A stretch of DNA of 64,000 nt from Thalassobaculum sp. OXR-137 (GTDB lineage Bacteria > Pseudomonadota > Alphaproteobacteria > Thalassobaculales > Thalassobaculaceae): NCBI RefSeq assembly GCF_034377285.1, contig NZ_CP139715.1:1240001-1304000 (forward strand). Reading direction: 5' to 3'. Shown here piece after piece: positions 3,430 to 41,789 of the stretch; within the stretch, counting starts at the first letter, position 1, and each line of letters begins with the position of its first letter. The notes beneath the pieces were generated by a model, which was not told where the DNA came from, searched no databases, and saw only the letters and a program-made list of their open reading frames with translations. The position numbers and the translations under genes were made by a program.

Positions 3430-4089
3430 CTAAGACCCCTGTGCCGCGGCGGCTTCCTTCTGGCGGGTTCGCGCCTCTTCCGGCCAGCGGGACTTGATGA
3501 AGGCCAGGATCGCCCAGATATCCGCATCCGCCAGCTCGGAGTCGAAGGCCGGCATGGCGTTGCGGTAGCTCGCCGGCGAGAACGGCTGGCCCCCGTATTT
3601 TGTCACGTCGAACAGGTCGCGGTCGGTCAGGCGCCAGATCGGCGACGTCCCGTCCAACGGCAGCGGCGGCCGGCCACCGTCCGGGTACTCCCCGTCCCAT
3701 CCCGGTTTTCCGGCCAGATCGGCGCCGTGGCAGAAGGCGCAATGCTGGTCGTAGAGCGTGTGGCCGAGGCCGACCAGCGCCGCGTTGGTGTGGTCCGCGG
3801 CGACCGCGTGCTCGTTGGTGTAGCGCTCCCAGTACAAATCGGCGGCGGTGATCAGCCCGCCGATCACGATGGCGGCGGCAAGGAAGCGGCCCTTCGCCCC
3901 GAGCCGGTTCGCGACCCGCCCGATCAGCCCGGGCGGCGCCTGGTCGGGGGCCTCATCCGCCTCTTCGGCCAGCCGGCCGAGCCGGCGGGCCGGGTCGAGG
4001 GTCCGGGCCGGGGTCTTGGGGATACGCCCGCGCAGCCGCTGCTCGAAGCGGGCCCGACGCTCCTGGCGGGCGGTTTTCGGATCGCGCAT
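3430..4089 (-). CDS. Membrane-anchored class I cytochrome c
   Basis: This 219-aa protein carries one haem-binding motif CAFCH (Cys117, Cys120, His121) and a likely axial Met179 in YRNAMPAFDSEL, so it is a mono-haem electron carrier. One transmembrane helix (about residues 69-86, FLAAAIVIGGLITAADLY) would anchor it with the haem domain in the periplasm. Unusually, about 68 basic and acidic residues precede the helix and would sit in the cytoplasm. It converges on fabI, and a RraA-like gene lies upstream on the same strand. The redox partner is not evident from context. Confidence 0.82.
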   Translation of the reverse strand: MRDPKTARQERRARFEQRLRGRIPKTPARTLDPARRLGRLAEEADEAPDQAPPGLIGRVANRLGAKGRFLAAAIVIGGLITAADLYWERYTNEHAVAADHTNAALVGLGHTLYDQHCAFCHGADLAGKPGWDGEYPDGGRPPLPLDGTSPIWRLTDRDLFDVTKYGGQPFSPASYRNAMPAFDSELADADIWAILAFIKSRWPEEARTRQKEAAAAQGS

Positions 4090-4122
4090 GGGCGGGGCCG
4101 GCCTCCTGTCTTGCGGTGCGGG

Positions 4123-4812
4123 TCAGTCTACCTCACGCACCTTGGGCGTGCCGAAAACATCGTCCAGCCAGCTCGGCCGGGCAAGTCCGGCGCGCACCTT
4201 GGCTTCCATCTCCGCCTCGCCGGCACGGACCTGGTCGAGCCTGTCGGCGACCGCGTCGATGCGCGCATGGGGCACGATGACCACGCCGTCTCGGTCGGCC
4301 ACCACGAGGTCGCCGGACGAGACGGCCACGCCGCCGCAGATGATGTCGAGACCCACGGTCCCGGGACCGACCCGGGCGGGCGAGTTCGGGGAGACGCCGG
4401 CATGCCAGACCGGCAGGCCCATGCCTTCGACCCCGTCCTGATCGCGGATCGCCCCGTCGGTGACCACGGCGATGGCGCCGGCGTTGCGCAGCATGCCGCA
4501 CAGCAGGTCCCCGGTCAGGGCGGTCTGGCGGTAGCCGTCGGTGGTGCAGACGATGATGTCGCCCTGCTCCAGCACGTCCAGGCAGGCGGCCAGCGCCAGG
4601 TTGTCGGCCGGATGGGCGAAGGCCGTGAGCACCGGCGCGGCGAGCGACACGCCGGGGGCGATCTGCGGCTTGATCGCGGGGTCCATGGCGCCCCGCCCTT
4701 CCATGGCGTCTACGACCTGGGCGGTGTAGGCGCCGCGGAAGCGGCGGAGCTGGGCCTCGCTCGGGCGCGGGAACTTGCGACGGACGGTGAGGATGGGAGG
4801 ATCTTCGAGCAT
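4123..4812 (-). CDS. RraA-like / 4-hydroxy-4-methyl-2-oxoglutarate aldolase family protein
   Basis: The 229-aa product belongs to the RraA-like fold, which includes the divalent-metal HMG/CHA aldolases and the RNase E inhibitor RraA. Seen are AIAVVTDGAIRDQDGVEGMG (about residues 110-129), with the Asp-(x)n-Arg-Asp substrate and metal site of the family, and an upstream TTDGYRQTALTGDL segment. The ATG at 4812 begins MLEDPPILTVRRKFPRPS; further upstream the frame only runs into the neighbouring hydrolase gene in another frame. Four bases separate it from that hydrolase, so they are likely co-transcribed. Substrate is not predictable. Confidence 0.75.
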   Translation of the reverse strand: MLEDPPILTVRRKFPRPSEAQLRRFRGAYTAQVVDAMEGRGAMDPAIKPQIAPGVSLAAPVLTAFAHPADNLALAACLDVLEQGDIIVCTTDGYRQTALTGDLLCGMLRNAGAIAVVTDGAIRDQDGVEGMGLPVWHAGVSPNSPARVGPGTVGLDIICGGVAVSSGDLVVADRDGVVIVPHARIDAVADRLDQVRAGEAEMEAKVRAGLARPSWLDDVFGTPKVREVD

Positions 4813-4816
4813 CGGG

Positions 4817-5698
4817 TCAGGACTCCGCGCGGGTGAACAGGTCGGCCATCGCCTCGGCGCAGTCGGCGGGCTCCTCCTCCACGAGGAAGTGTCCGCAATC
4901 CAAGCCGATGGCGTCCACATCGTCGGCCCAGCGGCGCCAGACGTCCAGATGCCGCTCGTCCTTTTCCTTCAGATAGCGTGTCCCCCAGATCAGCCGGGTC
5001 GGACAGGCAATCCGGTAGCCTGCTTCCAGGGAGGCTTCGTCCAGGGCGATGTCCACCGTCGCCCCGGCCTGATAGTCCGCGAACATGGCATCGACCACCG
5101 CCGGGTCCCGGTAGGCGTCGCAATATGCCTCGACCGCCGCATCGTCGAGCCGGTCGCGATGGCCGGCCCAGCGGTCGATCAGGTGGCGGACATAGCCGGG
5201 ACCGTCGGATCCCACCATCTGCCGCAGGAACGGATCGTCCTGGGCCAGCAGCAGCCAATGATAGCTGCCGAGCGCCGAGCGCCAGTCCATGCGCCGCCAG
5301 TTCTCCAGGGTCGGCACGATGTCGAGCGGAACGAAGCTGCGGACCATCTGCGGCATGTCCAGCGCTAGGCGGTAGCCGATCCGCCCGCCCCGGTCATGGC
5401 CCGACAGATGGAAGCTGTCGTGGCCGAGCGCCGTCATCAGTCCGGCGCAGAGCTTGGCCAGGCTGCGCTTGGAGAAGATCTCCGGGCTCGGCGCCGGCCC
5501 GCGCGAGGCGCCGTAGCCGGGGGTGTCCGGGATCACCAGGGTGAACCGGTCGGCCAGCAGCGGGGCGATCCGGTGGAAGGCGACATGGGTCTGGGGGAAG
5601 CCGTGCAGCAGCAGCACCGGCGGCCCGGATCCGCCGACCCGGACATGGAACTCCGTCTCGTCCACCGTGATCCGGTCGGTGCTGAACCCTTCGAACAT
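4817..5698 (-). CDS. Alpha/beta hydrolase of the haloacetate dehalogenase type
   Basis: This 293-aa alpha/beta hydrolase resembles fluoroacetate/haloacetate dehalogenases. The nucleophile is Asp102 in GHDRGGR rather than Ser, and the family motifs HGFPQTH (oxyanion loop), SYHWLLLAQ (halide-binding His-Trp region), DYQAGA and LDCGHFL (catalytic His) are all present. Haloacetate dehalogenases hydrolyse the C-halogen bond through an Asp ester, but family members annotated this way include many with unknown substrates. It is followed 4 bp later by the RraA-like gene on the same strand. Confidence 0.78.
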   Translation of the reverse strand: MFEGFSTDRITVDETEFHVRVGGSGPPVLLLHGFPQTHVAFHRIAPLLADRFTLVIPDTPGYGASRGPAPSPEIFSKRSLAKLCAGLMTALGHDSFHLSGHDRGGRIGYRLALDMPQMVRSFVPLDIVPTLENWRRMDWRSALGSYHWLLLAQDDPFLRQMVGSDGPGYVRHLIDRWAGHRDRLDDAAVEAYCDAYRDPAVVDAMFADYQAGATVDIALDEASLEAGYRIACPTRLIWGTRYLKEKDERHLDVWRRWADDVDAIGLDCGHFLVEEEPADCAEAMADLFTRAES

Positions 5699-5786: not shown

Positions 5787-6500
5787 ATGGCGCAGGACCG
5801 GAGCAGCGGGCGGCAGGCGGCGCTCGCCCGGGCGATGGACTATCCCTACGCGGCCCATCCCGGACCCTACCTGTTCCGCGGCGGGAAGGCCGAGCCGCTG
5901 CCCGCCGATCTCGACATCGCCCGCCTGACCCCGGTGATCGCCGTCGGCTCCAACCGCGCGCCGGTGCAGCTCGCCCGAAAGTTCGAGCGGATGGAGACGG
6001 CGATCCCGGTCACCCGCCTGGTCGCCCGCCATCTGGACGTGGTCCATGCCGCCCATATGGCGGGCTATGGCGCGGTGCCGGCGACCCTGGCGCCGTCGCC
6101 CGGGACTGAGGTGGAGCTGTGGATCACCTGGCTCGACGCGCCGACCATGCACCGGATGGACGCCACCGAGGCGGTCGGGGTGAACTATGCCCGCGAGGAG
6201 CAGGTGCTGGAGATCGTCGCCGCCGACGGCCCGGCGCCGGAGCGGGCCCTGGTCTACAACGCCCTGCGCGGCTGCCTCAGCTTCGACGGCGCGATGGTGC
6301 CGCTCGCCGCGGTCCCGGCGTCCCGCCGTCGCAGCCCGGCGATGACCCAGCGCGCGGTGCTGGAACGGCTGCATCGGGAGGCCGGGAGCCCGTCGGATTT
6401 CGAGCGCTGGCTGCACGGGCATATCGGGCCGACCGGGCTGCTGCGGCGCACCCGCCTGACCGAGCGGCTGGCGGCGGGGGCGATCCGACCCCGCGGGTGA
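5787..6500 (+). CDS. Hypothetical protein, possibly gamma-glutamylcyclotransferase-like
   Basis: The protein (237 aa from ATG 5787) is not confidently recognised. Its N-terminal half has TPVIAVGSNRAPVQLARKF, which is reminiscent of the Y/V-GSN loop of gamma-glutamylcyclotransferase-like folds, and the middle contains VELWITWLDAPTMHRMDATE. No signal peptide or membrane segment is visible. An ATG at 5763 is in frame, but GGGGAGGG lies directly upstream of 5787, favouring the shorter form. It is divergent from the hydrolase gene and converges on the cyclic-nucleotide-binding protein. Confidence 0.6.
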   Translation: MAQDRSSGRQAALARAMDYPYAAHPGPYLFRGGKAEPLPADLDIARLTPVIAVGSNRAPVQLARKFERMETAIPVTRLVARHLDVVHAAHMAGYGAVPATLAPSPGTEVELWITWLDAPTMHRMDATEAVGVNYAREEQVLEIVAADGPAPERALVYNALRGCLSFDGAMVPLAAVPASRRRSPAMTQRAVLERLHREAGSPSDFERWLHGHIGPTGLLRRTRLTERLAAGAIRPRG

Positions 6501-6536
6501 CGCCTGGAGTATGCGATCGACCGCCAGGCCGTCTCG

Positions 6537-6980
6537 TCAGTTCACGACCGGACGCAGGGGTTCCTCGTCCTCGAACCGGTCGGCCAGCAGCCGGGTCTCC
6601 GCGACCAGGCAGGACTGCGCGCTGACCGTCTCGTTCGCAACGCGCAACCGGCGCAGCAGCACCTTGAGCAGGGCGACCAGACCGGGCTCCGCGTTGGTCA
6701 GCAATCGGCTGAAATTCTGCTCGGTGATCACCTGGACGACCGTCATGCCGAGCGCGCGGGCGGTGGCGCTCCGCGGAGAATTGTCGATCAGCCCCATCTC
6801 GCCGATCAGTTCGCCGGGCCCCACGGTGGCCAGGAGCACCTCGTGGCGCTGGCCGGCGCTGCGCAGGATCTCCACCTCGCCGCTTTCGATCAGGAAGGCG
6901 GCCCAGGCCTGGTCGCCCTCGTGGAACAGGGTCTGGCCCGGCCGGTAGACCCGGCGATCCAGTATCTTGGCCTTGCGCAT
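6537..6980 (-). CDS. Cyclic nucleotide-binding domain protein
   Basis: The 147-aa protein is almost entirely one cNMP-binding domain. The phosphate-binding cassette GELIGEMGLIDNSPRSATAR (about residues 56-75) contains the conserved Glu and Arg that contact the cyclic phosphate. There is no C-terminal helix-turn-helix, so it is not a complete CRP/FNR regulator. Such stand-alone proteins may sense cAMP or cGMP and act through partners. It is a single gene on the minus strand. Confidence 0.82.
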   Translation of the reverse strand: MRKAKILDRRVYRPGQTLFHEGDQAWAAFLIESGEVEILRSAGQRHEVLLATVGPGELIGEMGLIDNSPRSATARALGMTVVQVITEQNFSRLLTNAEPGLVALLKVLLRRLRVANETVSAQSCLVAETRLLADRFEDEEPLRPVVN

Positions 6981-7105: not shown

Positions 7106-7780
7106 TCAGGCCGGCTCGACCCGCCACACGATGGTGCGGCGGATGTCGCTGTCCTCCAGGTCGCGCGGGGTCGGGACCATGTATTCGGCGAGCTTGGTGA
7201 GGCCGCTCTCCGGCAGGTAGCTGCGGCCCGGATCGCCCATCAGCACGGTCGCCCCGGCGGCGGCGTGGCGGCGCAGCCAGCCGATGGTGCGGTTCGACAT
7301 GGGCAACTCGTAGCAGACGTCCCCGGCCAGCACGAGATCGAACAGCGGCCCCCCGTCGTCGGCCAGAACCGGCTCGTCCAGCATGTCGCGGCTCACCGTC
7401 TCCAGCCCCCCGGCCACGCCGTTGGCCTCGGCGTTGAGGGTGATCGCGGCGATGGCGAAGGCGTCGATGTCGTTGGCCACCACATGGGCGGCCGAGACCC
7501 ACAGCGCGGCGACGCCGACGAGGCCGCTGCCCGAGGCGAAGTCCAGCACCCGCTTGCCGGCGGCCACGTCCGGATGGTCGATGATGTAGCGCGCAAGCGC
7601 CTGCCCGCCGGCCCAGGCAAAGGCCCAGTAGGGCGGCGGCAGGTCCTTCTCCGCCAGCTCCTCCTCGGTCAGCTCCCACAGCGGCACGGCCTTGTCGGCC
7701 AGGTGCAGCTTCAGTTCGGGGACGAGGCTGGGCGGCTTCAGAAGTGTGTTCTGTCGGACGAACGCGAGCGGATCGCCCAT
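7106..7780 (-). CDS. ETF-beta lysine methyltransferase-like class I SAM methyltransferase
   Basis: The 224-aa product has the SAM-binding motif VLDFASGSGLVGVAAL and, before it, PPYWAFAWAGGQALARYI, which is characteristic of the ETFB lysine methyltransferase (ETFBKMT) family. VVANDIDAFAIAAITLN follows as motif II. In mitochondria and at least some alphaproteobacteria this family trimethylates lysines of the electron transfer flavoprotein beta subunit. The start ATG at 7780 lies 5 bp after the ubiA stop codon, so the two genes are probably co-transcribed. The frame stays open upstream through ubiA, but that part is a shadow. Confidence 0.8.
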   Translation of the reverse strand: MGDPLAFVRQNTLLKPPSLVPELKLHLADKAVPLWELTEEELAEKDLPPPYWAFAWAGGQALARYIIDHPDVAAGKRVLDFASGSGLVGVAALWVSAAHVVANDIDAFAIAAITLNAEANGVAGGLETVSRDMLDEPVLADDGGPLFDLVLAGDVCYELPMSNRTIGWLRRHAAAGATVLMGDPGRSYLPESGLTKLAEYMVPTPRDLEDSDIRRTIVWRVEPA

Positions 7781-7785
7781 CCGGT

Positions 7786-8748
7786 CTAGCCGAGCACGAT
7801 GGCAAGCGCGACCAGCAGGCCGGCGTCGCGGTTCGCCCAGAAGGTGCGCAGGCAGTCCTGTGGGTCGTCGAGATCGGTGACCCAGAGCTGCCGGGCGAAG
7901 TTCAGGCCGGCCAGCGCCAGCCCGGCATAGGCCAGCGGGCCCAGGCCGGCGGTCCAGAAGCTGGCCGCCAGCAGCCCGATGGTGAGGGCGTAGAACACGG
8001 CCAGGGCCGGCTTGGTCCTGTCGCCCAGGGCGAGGGCGGAGGAGCGCACGCCGACGATGGCGTCGTCCTCCTTGTCCTGATGGGCGTAGATCGTGTCGTA
8101 GCCGAGCGTCCAGAAGAACCCGGCGGCATAGGCCAGGATCGCGGGCATGGCGATGGTCTCGGTCACCGCCGCATAGCCGAGCAGGGCGCCCCAGTTGAAG
8201 GTCAGGCCGAGCACCGCCTGGGGCCAGTCGGTGACCCGCTTGGCCGCCGGGTACAGGAACACCAGGACCAGCACCGACGCGCCGATCGCCCAGGAGGTGG
8301 TGTTGAGCTGCAGCAGGATGGCGAGGCCGACGGCAAGCTGGGCGGCGAGGAAGACCAGGGCGGCGAAGGGCGTGACGGCGCCGCTGGCGAGCGGGCGGGT
8401 GGCGGTCCGGGCGATCTTGGTGTCGATCTTGCGGTCCCACAGGTCGTTCACCGTGCAGCCGGCGCCGCGCATGACCAGCGCGCCGACCGTGAACAGGACG
8501 ACGAGCCGCAGCATCTCCAGGGCGGGTCCGGTGGCGGTCGGTGCGCCCAGCGCCTGCCAGCCGAGGCCGAGCCCCCACAGGCAGGGCAGGTACAGCAACC
8601 AGGTGCCGATCGGCCGGTCGAGCCGCGCCAGCCGGGCATAGGGCCGCCAGGACGCGGGCAGCCAGCGGTCCACCCAGTTGCCCTGGGGGATGTCGCTCGC
8701 GCCGCTGACGTTCCGGTCGGGAGTGCTGCCGCTCATGGGGAAAGTCAT
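7786..8748 (-). CDS. ubiA: 4-hydroxybenzoate polyprenyltransferase UbiA
   Basis: UbiA attaches the polyprenyl tail to 4-hydroxybenzoate in ubiquinone synthesis and is an integral membrane protein. Its 320 aa show the two Asp-rich Mg-diphosphate sites, NDLWDRKID (Asn101, Asp105, Asp109) and YDTIYAHQDKEDD, with multiple hydrophobic helices. ATG 8748 is used; ATG 8736 (MSGSTPD) is an equally plausible start. The base composition turns AT-rich immediately upstream of the start, so the native promoter region has probably been replaced by the adjacent islet. Confidence 0.93.
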   Translation of the reverse strand: MTFPMSGSTPDRNVSGASDIPQGNWVDRWLPASWRPYARLARLDRPIGTWLLYLPCLWGLGLGWQALGAPTATGPALEMLRLVVLFTVGALVMRGAGCTVNDLWDRKIDTKIARTATRPLASGAVTPFAALVFLAAQLAVGLAILLQLNTTSWAIGASVLVLVFLYPAAKRVTDWPQAVLGLTFNWGALLGYAAVTETIAMPAILAYAAGFFWTLGYDTIYAHQDKEDDAIVGVRSSALALGDRTKPALAVFYALTIGLLAASFWTAGLGPLAYAGLALAGLNFARQLWVTDLDDPQDCLRTFWANRDAGLLVALAIVLG

Positions 8749-8813
8749 AGAGAATTTAGGCGAGTATTAAAAGCGTTTCTATTGATAAGTATCTTTATTC
8801 TGTTCAAGAATTT

Positions 8814-9977
8814 CTATGTTTTTGTGTAATATATTGACAAAATAGTAGTTAGCATGGTTATGGTTCCTCCGACAATAACTCCGAGAAGGGCCGCCGTAAT
8901 TATGGCGCTCGTAGACTCAGAGTGGCGAAGTTCGTCAGAAATAAATTGATAAAGCTTTTTGTAACGTTCAACGAAACCCATATCGGCGGATTTGATTTCA
9001 AGGTTGGCATATTCGAGTAGCGTGTTGCCAAATACATGGCTCGATAAAAGTTTATTTTGATCGAGCAATTTTGCTTCAACTTCGACAAATATATTTTCAA
9101 TATCAACAAAATAGAATGGAATAGATTTAAACCCTTCATGGTATGATTTCAGCGATTTTATTTTCTTTATGTCACCTTTTGTATTTTCTTCAATAACTTC
9201 TAGTATCTCTGTGATTGAGTCTCTAATATCATATATTTGGTTGGTGGAGTGAACGGTGAAGTAGAATGGTCCTAGTGATCTAACTACGTAACGAAATACA
9301 AAACTTTGAATCTGATCTAAATCAAAATCCGTATCACTAAATTCAAAAAAGCAATCATTATAGCCAGGTTGAGTTACCATTTTCATGGATGGAAGAGAAT
9401 TCTCTTCTATTTTTGAATCATCTTCAATTTTTGAAATGAAAAAATCACAATGAAATGGCGTTGGGCCAACTATATGGAAATCACAATTGAATTCGTTAGA
9501 ATTAAAGCTATCACGAAGGAAGTGCCATAAAGTAGTTACGGCTCCAGAAATATCTGGTTCTATATGTGGGATTTTTGGTCTCAAAATACAGACAGGGTGT
9601 TCAAAATTAAAATATATCGTAACTATAAAATCTGTTGATTTTACTTCTTTCCAATTAAGGGAAAATTTCTCTTGAAGTTCTGAAGATAAAAATATCTCAA
9701 ATCTTAATACTCCCGATGAAAATCTCGGAAATGGGATATCAGATACTAAAATTCTATCAGGAATTTCTAACCAATCGACGCTATCCGGATGTGAGCGAAT
9801 TGAATCTATATCTTCACAAGATATATTAGTTATGTTGGGGATTTTGCGAAGATCTTCAATGATAAAATTTATTGATTCTTCAATTTGTTTATTTTTAGAT
9901 AGCTTAAATAAATTCGAGTTCTTCACTGAAAAAAATACGCATCCCGCTGAAAATGACTGTTCAACCTTGCGCGTCAT
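8814..9977 (-). CDS. Unknown AT-rich gene for a C-terminally membrane-anchored protein
   Basis: This 387-aa protein is not recognised. Its codon use (many AAA, AAT, TTT, ATA) is utterly unlike the GC-rich neighbours, indicating recent acquisition. The first about 350 residues look soluble and rich in Phe, Ile, Asp and Glu, with several aromatic segments (FIVTIYFNFEHPVC, FVFRYVVRSLGPFYFTVH). One hydrophobic helix near residues 357-381 (SAIITAALLGVIVGGTITML onward) followed by YYTKT suggests a tail anchor with a cytoplasmic N-terminal domain. It has its own promoter at 10018-10046. It could be a stress or phage-defence gene, but nothing in the sequence proves a function. Confidence 0.8.
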   Translation of the reverse strand: MTRKVEQSFSAGCVFFSVKNSNLFKLSKNKQIEESINFIIEDLRKIPNITNISCEDIDSIRSHPDSVDWLEIPDRILVSDIPFPRFSSGVLRFEIFLSSELQEKFSLNWKEVKSTDFIVTIYFNFEHPVCILRPKIPHIEPDISGAVTTLWHFLRDSFNSNEFNCDFHIVGPTPFHCDFFISKIEDDSKIEENSLPSMKMVTQPGYNDCFFEFSDTDFDLDQIQSFVFRYVVRSLGPFYFTVHSTNQIYDIRDSITEILEVIEENTKGDIKKIKSLKSYHEGFKSIPFYFVDIENIFVEVEAKLLDQNKLLSSHVFGNTLLEYANLEIKSADMGFVERYKKLYQFISDELRHSESTSAIITAALLGVIVGGTITMLTTILSIYYTKT

Positions 9978-10017
9978 GGTTTTACCTATTTTAAAAAGCT
10001 AATGGCGTAGAAAGTAA

Positions 10018-10046
10018 ATTATATAAAACTTAATTTATCGACACAA
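10018..10046 (-). promoter_or_regulatory. Near-consensus sigma-70 promoter for the AT-rich gene
   Basis: On the minus strand, TTGTGT (10041-10046) and a perfect TATAAT (10018-10023) are separated by exactly 17 bp. Transcription would begin near 10010, about 33 nt before the ATG at 9977. A TAGGT element upstream of the ATG could serve as ribosome site. The perfect -10 in an AT-rich context contrasts with the rest of the window, where no such obvious promoter is seen. Confidence 0.65.
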
Positions 10047-10142
10047 TCGTAAAATGCAATCAGTAATGGTCTACGTATAGACGCAGGTGCCGCTCTTTCA
10101 TTGTACTTCCGCATTCGTATTAGCCAGCGTCTTCGTGCCAGA

Positions 10143-11168
10143 TCAGCTAGGCCTTACCGGATAGGCGCTCGGAACCTTGTCGACCGCGTCCAGAAGGTCC
10201 GGGCGCACGCTTTCCACCCAGTCCTGGATCAGTCGCCGGGCGATGCTGTCGCGGCGCGGCAGGAACTTGCCGAGCGCTTCGAAATCGGCGAGCTGGTCGA
10301 TGGTGAAGAACTGGGCGTCGCCCAGCTCGTCGTCGTTGCGCACGATGTCGAAAGACTTCGCCTCGGCGTGGAAGCCCAGCATCAGCGAGGACGGGAACGG
10401 CCAGGGCTGCGAGGAGTGGTACCGCACGTCGCGGACATGGATTCCGCTCTCCTCCCAGACCTCGCGGGCCACCGCCTCCTCCAGGGTCTCGCCCGGCTCC
10501 ACGAAGCCGGCCAGGGTGGAATACATGCCGTCGGGCCAGATCTTCTGGCGGCCGAGCAGGCAGCGGTCGCCGTCATGCACCAGCATGATCACCGCCGGGT
10601 CGGTGCGCGGGAAATGCGGGGCGCGGCAGTTCTCGTTGGTGCAGCTGCGCTGATGGCCACCCTTCACCGACCGGGTCTCCGAGCCGCAAACGCCGCAGAA
10701 CCGGTGGCGCTGATGCCACCACATCAGGCCGCGGGCATAGGCCAGAACCGACCCCTCGAAGCGGTTCAGCAGCGGGCCGATCTGGCGCAGGTCCTGGAAC
10801 ACGCCATGGGCGGCCAGGATGTTGAGAATGTCCGTCTCCTCCAGCGGCGACAGGTCGATCGCCACATGGGCGATCCCGTCGCGCTCGCCCAGGAAGGCGG
10901 TCATGTCGGCAAAGCGCATCAGCCCCCTGTGCTCCGCCGCCGACAGCATCCCGGCGCGCGGCAAGTCGCCCGGCGCGACCAGCGATCGGCTGCGCCAGAC
11001 CGGCACGATCACCGTATCGGGCCGCTCCAGCAGCTCGTCGAGCCAGCCTTCGCGCTCGCGGATATGGGCTGAACGGTCGAGACCACCGAAGCCGTAGACG
11101 TTCGGGCGCTTGGTGATCAGGTCGGTGGCGGGGACGGAGTCATCCGTCCCGGGAGGATGTAGGTTCAT
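10143..11168 (-). CDS. nudC: NADH pyrophosphatase / NAD-capped RNA hydrolase NudC
   Basis: NudC hydrolyses NADH to NMNH and AMP and can remove NAD caps from RNA. The 341-aa product has the zinc ribbon CGVCGSETRSVKGG..C..C, the Nudix box GFVEPGETLEEAVAREVWEE and the NudC-specific SQPWPFPSSLM motif. The longer frame starts at GTG 11186; ATG 11168 (MNLHPPGTDD) is preferred, although neither has a clear ribosome site. Its stop lies at the right edge of the AT-rich islet, so the islet sits between nudC and ubiA. Confidence 0.92.
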   Translation of the reverse strand: MNLHPPGTDDSVPATDLITKRPNVYGFGGLDRSAHIREREGWLDELLERPDTVIVPVWRSRSLVAPGDLPRAGMLSAAEHRGLMRFADMTAFLGERDGIAHVAIDLSPLEETDILNILAAHGVFQDLRQIGPLLNRFEGSVLAYARGLMWWHQRHRFCGVCGSETRSVKGGHQRSCTNENCRAPHFPRTDPAVIMLVHDGDRCLLGRQKIWPDGMYSTLAGFVEPGETLEEAVAREVWEESGIHVRDVRYHSSQPWPFPSSLMLGFHAEAKSFDIVRNDDELGDAQFFTIDQLADFEALGKFLPRRDSIARRLIQDWVESVRPDLLDAVDKVPSAYPVRPS

Positions 11169-11242
11169 GGCGGCGCGAGTGTACACGCCTGGAGGAGGGA
11201 GGCAACGGGCCCTGATCGGGTCAGGGCCCGGCCGGCACGCCC

Positions 11243-41422: not shown

Positions 41423-41789
41423 GCGCTTCCCACCTCCTTAATCCAACTCATACCCCCTGCATACCCAACCCGACTTCCTGGACGACCGTCAGGGAGATCC
41501 AGGATCGTGCCCCGGACCGGTCCGCATACCGGTCCCGGCTCGACCTGACGGTCGTCCGGGAAGTCGGTTGGGGGGGAGAGATGAGCGAGAGAGGGCACAG
41601 AGTCCCCGCTCCTCCCCTCGATCGACTTCCTGGACGGACACCCGGCCCCGGCCTCGTGCCGGGGTGAGCCGGGGGCCGATCCAGGACCGTGCCTCGGGCG
41701 GGTCCGCATACCGGTCCTGGATCTCCCTGACGGTCGTCCAGGAAGTCGGTCTTGGGGGAAGGCGCCCAAGCGCCAACCGCCACCCGCCC
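41423..41789. repeat. 367-bp intergenic block with two Family C palindromic repeats
   Basis: Copy 1 (41471-41566) and copy 2 (41623-41748) both open with CGACTTCCTGGACG and close with CGTCCRGGAAGTCG, and share the core GTCCGCATACCGGTCC near their right halves. Each can fold into a long hairpin; copy 2 is interrupted by a second GC-rich palindrome around GGCCCCGG. The copies are in the same orientation between two convergent genes. No gene is seen. Confidence 0.8.

Follow-up and report, generated by a model that had tools for sequence, protein, structure and literature searches.

Between ubiA and a nudC-like gene of Thalassobaculum sp. OXR-137 lies an AT-rich islet with a single gene, and the locus raises the question of where this DNA came from and what its product may do for the host. 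We analysed a window of 64 kb, meaning the whole stretch of DNA studied here, from a genome of 5,646,840 bases in 3 contigs. The published description of this strain likewise gives 3 contigs, 5.65 Mb and 67.0% GC, and reports that the chromosome carries 19 genomic islands (PMC12016528). When followed in 500-bp windows, GC content dropped from about 70% to 32-34% between ubiA and the nudC-like gene, and it was 33.6% over the islet (8749-10142) as against 67.9% across the window, thereby confirming the abrupt shift described in the first-pass annotation. In 300-bp windows, the islet was the sole stretch of the 64 kb to fall below 52% GC. Blocks that could be aligned with congeneric genomes stopped at 8749 (at 8719, 30 bp inside ubiA, for the congener G004) on one side and at 10140-10141 on the other. 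A second copy of the stretch 9978-10146 was looked for in the host genome and none was found, and Rfam gave three matches, each well under its gathering score. The features discussed are collected in Table 1.

Table 1. Features of the ubiA-nudC islet and other low-GC segments of the host chromosome. Positions refer to the window, or, for L091 to L101, to the 20-kb stretch of that name.
Feature	Position	Strand	Remarks
ubiA, flanking gene	7786..8748	-	PF01040, E 3.3e-56
AT-rich islet, whole ubiA-nudC spacer	8749..10142	.	33.6% GC; end of congener-alignable blocks
Orphan gene, 387 aa	8814..9977	-	ORF; stop-free length; no homologue at useful score
Putative C-terminal membrane helix, about residues 356-383	8829..8912	-	Hydropathy only
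Possible promoter TTGTGT-17-TATAAT	10018..10046	-	Read in sequence; 40 nt before ATG
Intermediate-composition islet edge	10041..10142	.	46.1% GC
nudC-like NADH pyrophosphatase, flanking gene	10143..11186	-	PF00293, PF09297, PF09296
L091	2086-3236		Two small AT-rich orphan ORFs together
L092	6176-7471		431-aa AAA ATPase-like; weak AAA_16, NACHT and mad8 scores
L093	13999-14952		DUF2806 protein; ORF 49.5% GC, mildly AT-rich
L095	14863-15927 (contig ~1134863-1135927)		232-aa orphan ORF, 31.9% GC
L101	12566-13516		Methyltransferase-like protein; TRM5 score under cut-off

The genus sample comprised six genomes including the host. Three of the five congeners (G002, G003 and G004) were full-size; the other two, of 1.5 Mb and lacking a nudC match, were uninformative on the site. 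The flanks were collinear in all three full-size congeners, with 78-88% identity in the blocks adjoining the islet, and the spacer between ubiA and nudC measured 285 bp in G002, 195 bp in G003 and 2362 bp in G004 (68.4%, 73.3% and 69.1% GC, respectively). The junction comparison that the first-pass annotation had proposed thus returned a short, GC-rich, empty-like spacer in two of the three and a swapped cargo in the third. In a Pfam scan, the G004 spacer gave a chromate transporter (PF02417, E 1.2e-71) together with a rhodanese domain and, as a partial match, ChrB_C; on the G004 contig C48 (L082, 6149-8336), these last two matches fell on separate ORFs. Two different cargoes between ubiA and nudC among four usable genomes are too few for the site to be called a hotspot. 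Beyond the genus, both ubiA and nudC were strongly matched in 25 of 30 family genomes. In four of these the two genes shared a contig at a distance of 73-117 kb; in the other 21 they were on separate contigs and may still be adjacent at contig ends. As a separate observation, the G002 spacer (L080, about 4060-4210) contains near-complementary stretches around CCGGATTTATTCCGGGG and CCCCGGAATAAATCCGGGG, resembling a palindromic repeat. G003 has about 1.7 kb of unaligned extra DNA (L081, 1094-2793) opposite window positions 6488-6630, about 2 kb from the islet.

The frame within the islet was far longer than shuffled sequence permits, and we therefore regard it as a real gene: the longest run without a stop spanned 394 codons, and none of 1000 dinucleotide-shuffled versions of the islet exceeded 161. 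GC content at its three codon positions was 41.5, 30.9 and 27.8%. None of the 35 other family genomes matched the 387-aa protein, at E 10 or at 0.05, and its single match in the host genome was itself; an AT-rich orthologue conserved throughout the genus, which the first-pass annotation had named as an outcome that would refute its reading, was thus not found. By absence in relatives alone, gain is inseparable from loss, and an ancestral gene of the genus, since lost by its relatives, has to be considered. Its absence from every one of these 35 genomes, together with a third-position GC of 27.8% against 67.9-71.8% GC in the flanking genes, makes such a history highly improbable. Collinear flanks, congener spacers that are short or otherwise filled and the lack of any match in the 35 genomes mark the islet as an insert peculiar to this species, lying in a spacer that varies, and the foreign single-gene insert that had been proposed is well supported. 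The best explanation overall, which we consider likely, is that this species alone recently acquired one foreign, AT-rich gene in a ubiA-nudC spacer that tolerates insertions. Set against it are the sample of only six genus genomes, the lack of a mobility gene or scar, and the lack of a PADLOC match for a role in conflict.

Since the islet has no integrase or transposase, no clear terminal repeats and no tRNA attachment site, it does not qualify as an integrative or transposable element. The ORF listing held no second frame of integrase or transposase size inside the islet, and no tRNA gene was present in the 64-kb window. Comparison of 8300-8850 with 9950-10600 for terminal repeats gave at best a 10-bp direct match and a 14-bp inverted match of 93%, in keeping with the earlier reading that mobility genes and clear repeats are missing. 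The donor would have been AT-rich and was probably a mobile element with little representation in databases. Recombination within the neighbouring genes or illegitimate joining may have brought the DNA in, and either could leave no repeats. The three congeners resemble one another over about 25 bp immediately 5' of ubiA, and the window shows no recognisable counterpart of this stretch. The islet thus extends as far as the start codon of ubiA, so that transcription of ubiA probably begins in the islet or passes through it.

The first-pass annotation had credited the gene with a near-ideal, strong sigma-70 promoter of its own, which proved to be overstated. The -10 element TATAAT is perfect, and the -35 element TTGTGT agrees with the consensus (TTGACA) at three of six positions, which is why the pair was missing from the list produced by our consensus scan. 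That scan returned six promoter-like sites over 8700-10200, as compared to 5.5 ± 2.5 in shuffled sequence. AT-rich DNA readily yields sites resembling a -10 element: when the 165-bp leader was shuffled 2000 times, 16.7% of the shuffles contained TATAAT and 1.85% contained TTGNNN-16-18-TATAAT, the latter pattern having been picked after the site was seen. A working promoter at this position is plausible, and the gene may be transcribed from this modest promoter within the islet.

The protein has one hydrophobic stretch, at its C-terminus, where 19-residue windows starting at residues 353-367 of 387 averaged 1.39-2.20 in hydropathy. Before residue 340 the best such window reached 0.94, and no hydrophobic segment was found near the N-terminus. 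By hydropathy, the protein thus has the single putative membrane segment close to the C-terminus that marks a tail anchor, in agreement with the one C-terminal helix noticed at first reading. With this predicted helix and a body of about 350 residues on the cytosolic side, the product would most likely reside in the inner membrane. AlphaFold single-sequence models, built without homologues, failed to give a confident fold, with a mean pLDDT of 37.0 (whole protein) and 46.9 (residues 83-251), and Foldseek with the model of residues 83-251 returned no match at E ≤ 0.001. The top Foldseek match, a pilin (E 4.9e-3, TM 0.39, rmsd 11.9), is meaningless at this model confidence.

Profile searches against Pfam, NCBIfam, PADLOC and PHROGs assigned the 387-aa protein to no family at a useful score; the earlier description of a single ORF without a recognisable family therefore held, and homology to a housekeeping family, which would have argued against it, did not appear in these profiles. 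PADLOC gave no match to the protein even at E 10 and none for its pieces. Sequences in the PDB yielded no convincing relative (best E 0.076), and 72,556 plasmid records and 50,697 phage records gave no match at E 1. Seed-based scans of GTDB contigs and of viral contigs confirmed no relative, such scans requiring an exact short peptide and letting distant relatives escape. HMMER-scored searches of whole genomes, in overlapping sets of 61, 398, 385, 78, 369 and 36 genomes, recovered the window's own copy and otherwise only matches at E 0.0166-0.808. Outside the phylum, coverage came from the seed-based scans and the plasmid, phage and viral records.

Several weak candidates were set aside. Antirestrict matched at E 0.049 with 14.3 bits (cut-off 25), and the C-terminal piece at E 0.0097 with 16.5 bits; EssA (E 0.029) and PDDEXK_10 (E 0.064) matched pieces of the protein; MORC3 (E 0.076 and 0.2) and a glutathione S-transferase (E 0.3) came from the PDB sequences. 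All were treated as chance. Among the weak matches listed as L002-L019, several appeared upon re-alignment to be unrelated proteins or frames antisense to genes, presumably including a TetR-type regulator and a glycyl-tRNA synthetase, both named by eye. Of L086-L089, L088 was the one inspected, and by eye it looked like a histidine kinase.

AT-rich ORFans are known from E. coli (PMC2275313), and the islet alone is of this familiar kind. Like ORFans and other recently gained AT-rich single genes, as these are described in PMC2275313 and PMC2718499, the orphan gene is AT-rich, confined to one lineage and of foreign base composition (33.6% vs 67.9% GC), and it has no detectable homologue, with seed-based or plasmid, phage and viral scans covering the world outside the phylum. 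ORFans are characteristically short according to PMC2275313, whereas the islet protein is long.

The islet is also one of a recurring kind in the host chromosome and not exceptional. A sample of 400 kb from the same 5.46-Mb contig, taken as twenty stretches of 20 kb, contained five low-GC segments, defined by 600-bp windows below 50%, two of which dipped below 35% (Table 1, where an orphan among these five is an ORF that neither Pfam nor PADLOC matched at E 0.01). Each resembles the islet in having one or two low-GC ORFs amid GC-rich DNA. Judged on the 600 bp richest in AT, the ubiA-nudC islet has the lowest GC of the six (30.8%). Comparison with congeners covered L095 and L092 of the five. 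On either side of L095 stands a 49-bp direct repeat of 90% identity, a feature absent from the ubiA-nudC islet. The L095 site was empty in all three full-size congeners, with a single copy of 58 bp in G002 and G003; the flanks of L092 were scattered among the congeners and its site was not clearly empty. Near L092 (about 4693-4825) we also came across a dispersed repeat of about 130 bp with many diverged copies on the chromosome, one of them in the window at about 41621-41691.

Given such an insert, the gene may be a captured passenger that has acquired no selected role as yet and is heading for loss. The unmatched composition, a protein confined to one species of those compared and the mixed cargo of the other AT-rich segments all agree with this, as does the statement in PMC7229825 that the AT-rich DNA of acquired genes is prone to chance promoters. 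Against it stand the intact frame of 387 codons and the account in PMC2275313 that ORFans outlast other acquired genes in E. coli. On balance a passenger is a serious contender, a little short of an even chance.

If the gene works for the host, it might do so in the envelope or under stress and apart from phages, for example as a membrane-bound sensor or scaffold gained with the islet. The single C-terminal hydrophobic segment would suit such a function, and the cargo in the G004 spacer is metal-related, but the protein matched no stress family, and we hold this reading to be unlikely.

Alternatively, a phage-defence role of the islet gene is possible, although the analysis turned up no evidence for the defence or stress role suggested in the first-pass annotation. 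In the specific form of a lone anti-phage gene, the cytosolic body would sense infection and the C-terminal helix would act on the membrane or dock at it. We scanned ten genes, about 6 kb either side of the islet, against PADLOC, and seven gave nothing at E 0.01. The other three gave partial matches: gene 6540-6980 to Pycsar-type effectors and cyclase (best 2.4e-12), gene 7109-7780 to mad2 (3.8e-13) and nudC to PDC-S07 (7.1e-4). These matches we take to be cyclic-nucleotide-binding, methyltransferase and NUDIX stretches common in ordinary proteins, and all three genes lie outside the islet, within blocks aligned with congeners. As the only hint of a defence neighbourhood, the three apparently generic domains were not counted, and they speak against the lone anti-phage gene, as do the missing PADLOC match for the protein and its pieces and the chromate transport cargo at the same site in G004. 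No recognised defence gene was found at the site by PADLOC for the islet protein or by a Pfam scan for the G004 cargo, and a literature search on tail-anchored anti-phage proteins found no paper. In its favour are a single foreign gene between core genes, the AAA ATPase-like protein of L092 with its weak mad8 score, and the core defence hotspots of P. aeruginosa, which are described as having fixed core flanks, variable content and lower GC than the host (PMC10250203). The same source gives the cDHS1 regions, more than 1600 in number, as 1-224 kb long (median 26 kb) with many immune systems, whereas at the ubiA-nudC site there is a single gene, the comparison draws on four usable genomes and the spacer holds no recognised defence gene. 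Overall, we think a lone anti-phage gene improbable.

Taken more broadly, the most likely working role would be a selected one in conflict with phages or mobile elements, where the protein may act as an accessory at the cytosolic face of the membrane by sensing or interference; we put this forward tentatively, as somewhat doubtful. The ranking is grounded in general knowledge of such inserts. A gene that so far serves no selected role is no less likely. It is quite improbable, though conceivable, that the protein is the first representative of a family of tail-anchored proteins new to science, acting alone in immunity or interference and spread on single-gene AT-rich islets, for which ubiA-nudC would be one of several landing sites in this genome.

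What is documented here is a foreign insert of a single gene at a site where relatives have a short spacer; it lacks an integrase, shows no scar and encodes a 387-aa protein that these searches related to nothing. The same chromosome holds further low-GC islets, with a clean empty site for one of the two compared with congeners. Together, these islets would offer one organism in which the entry of single genes without machinery of their own, and the roles of long orphan genes, can be tested.
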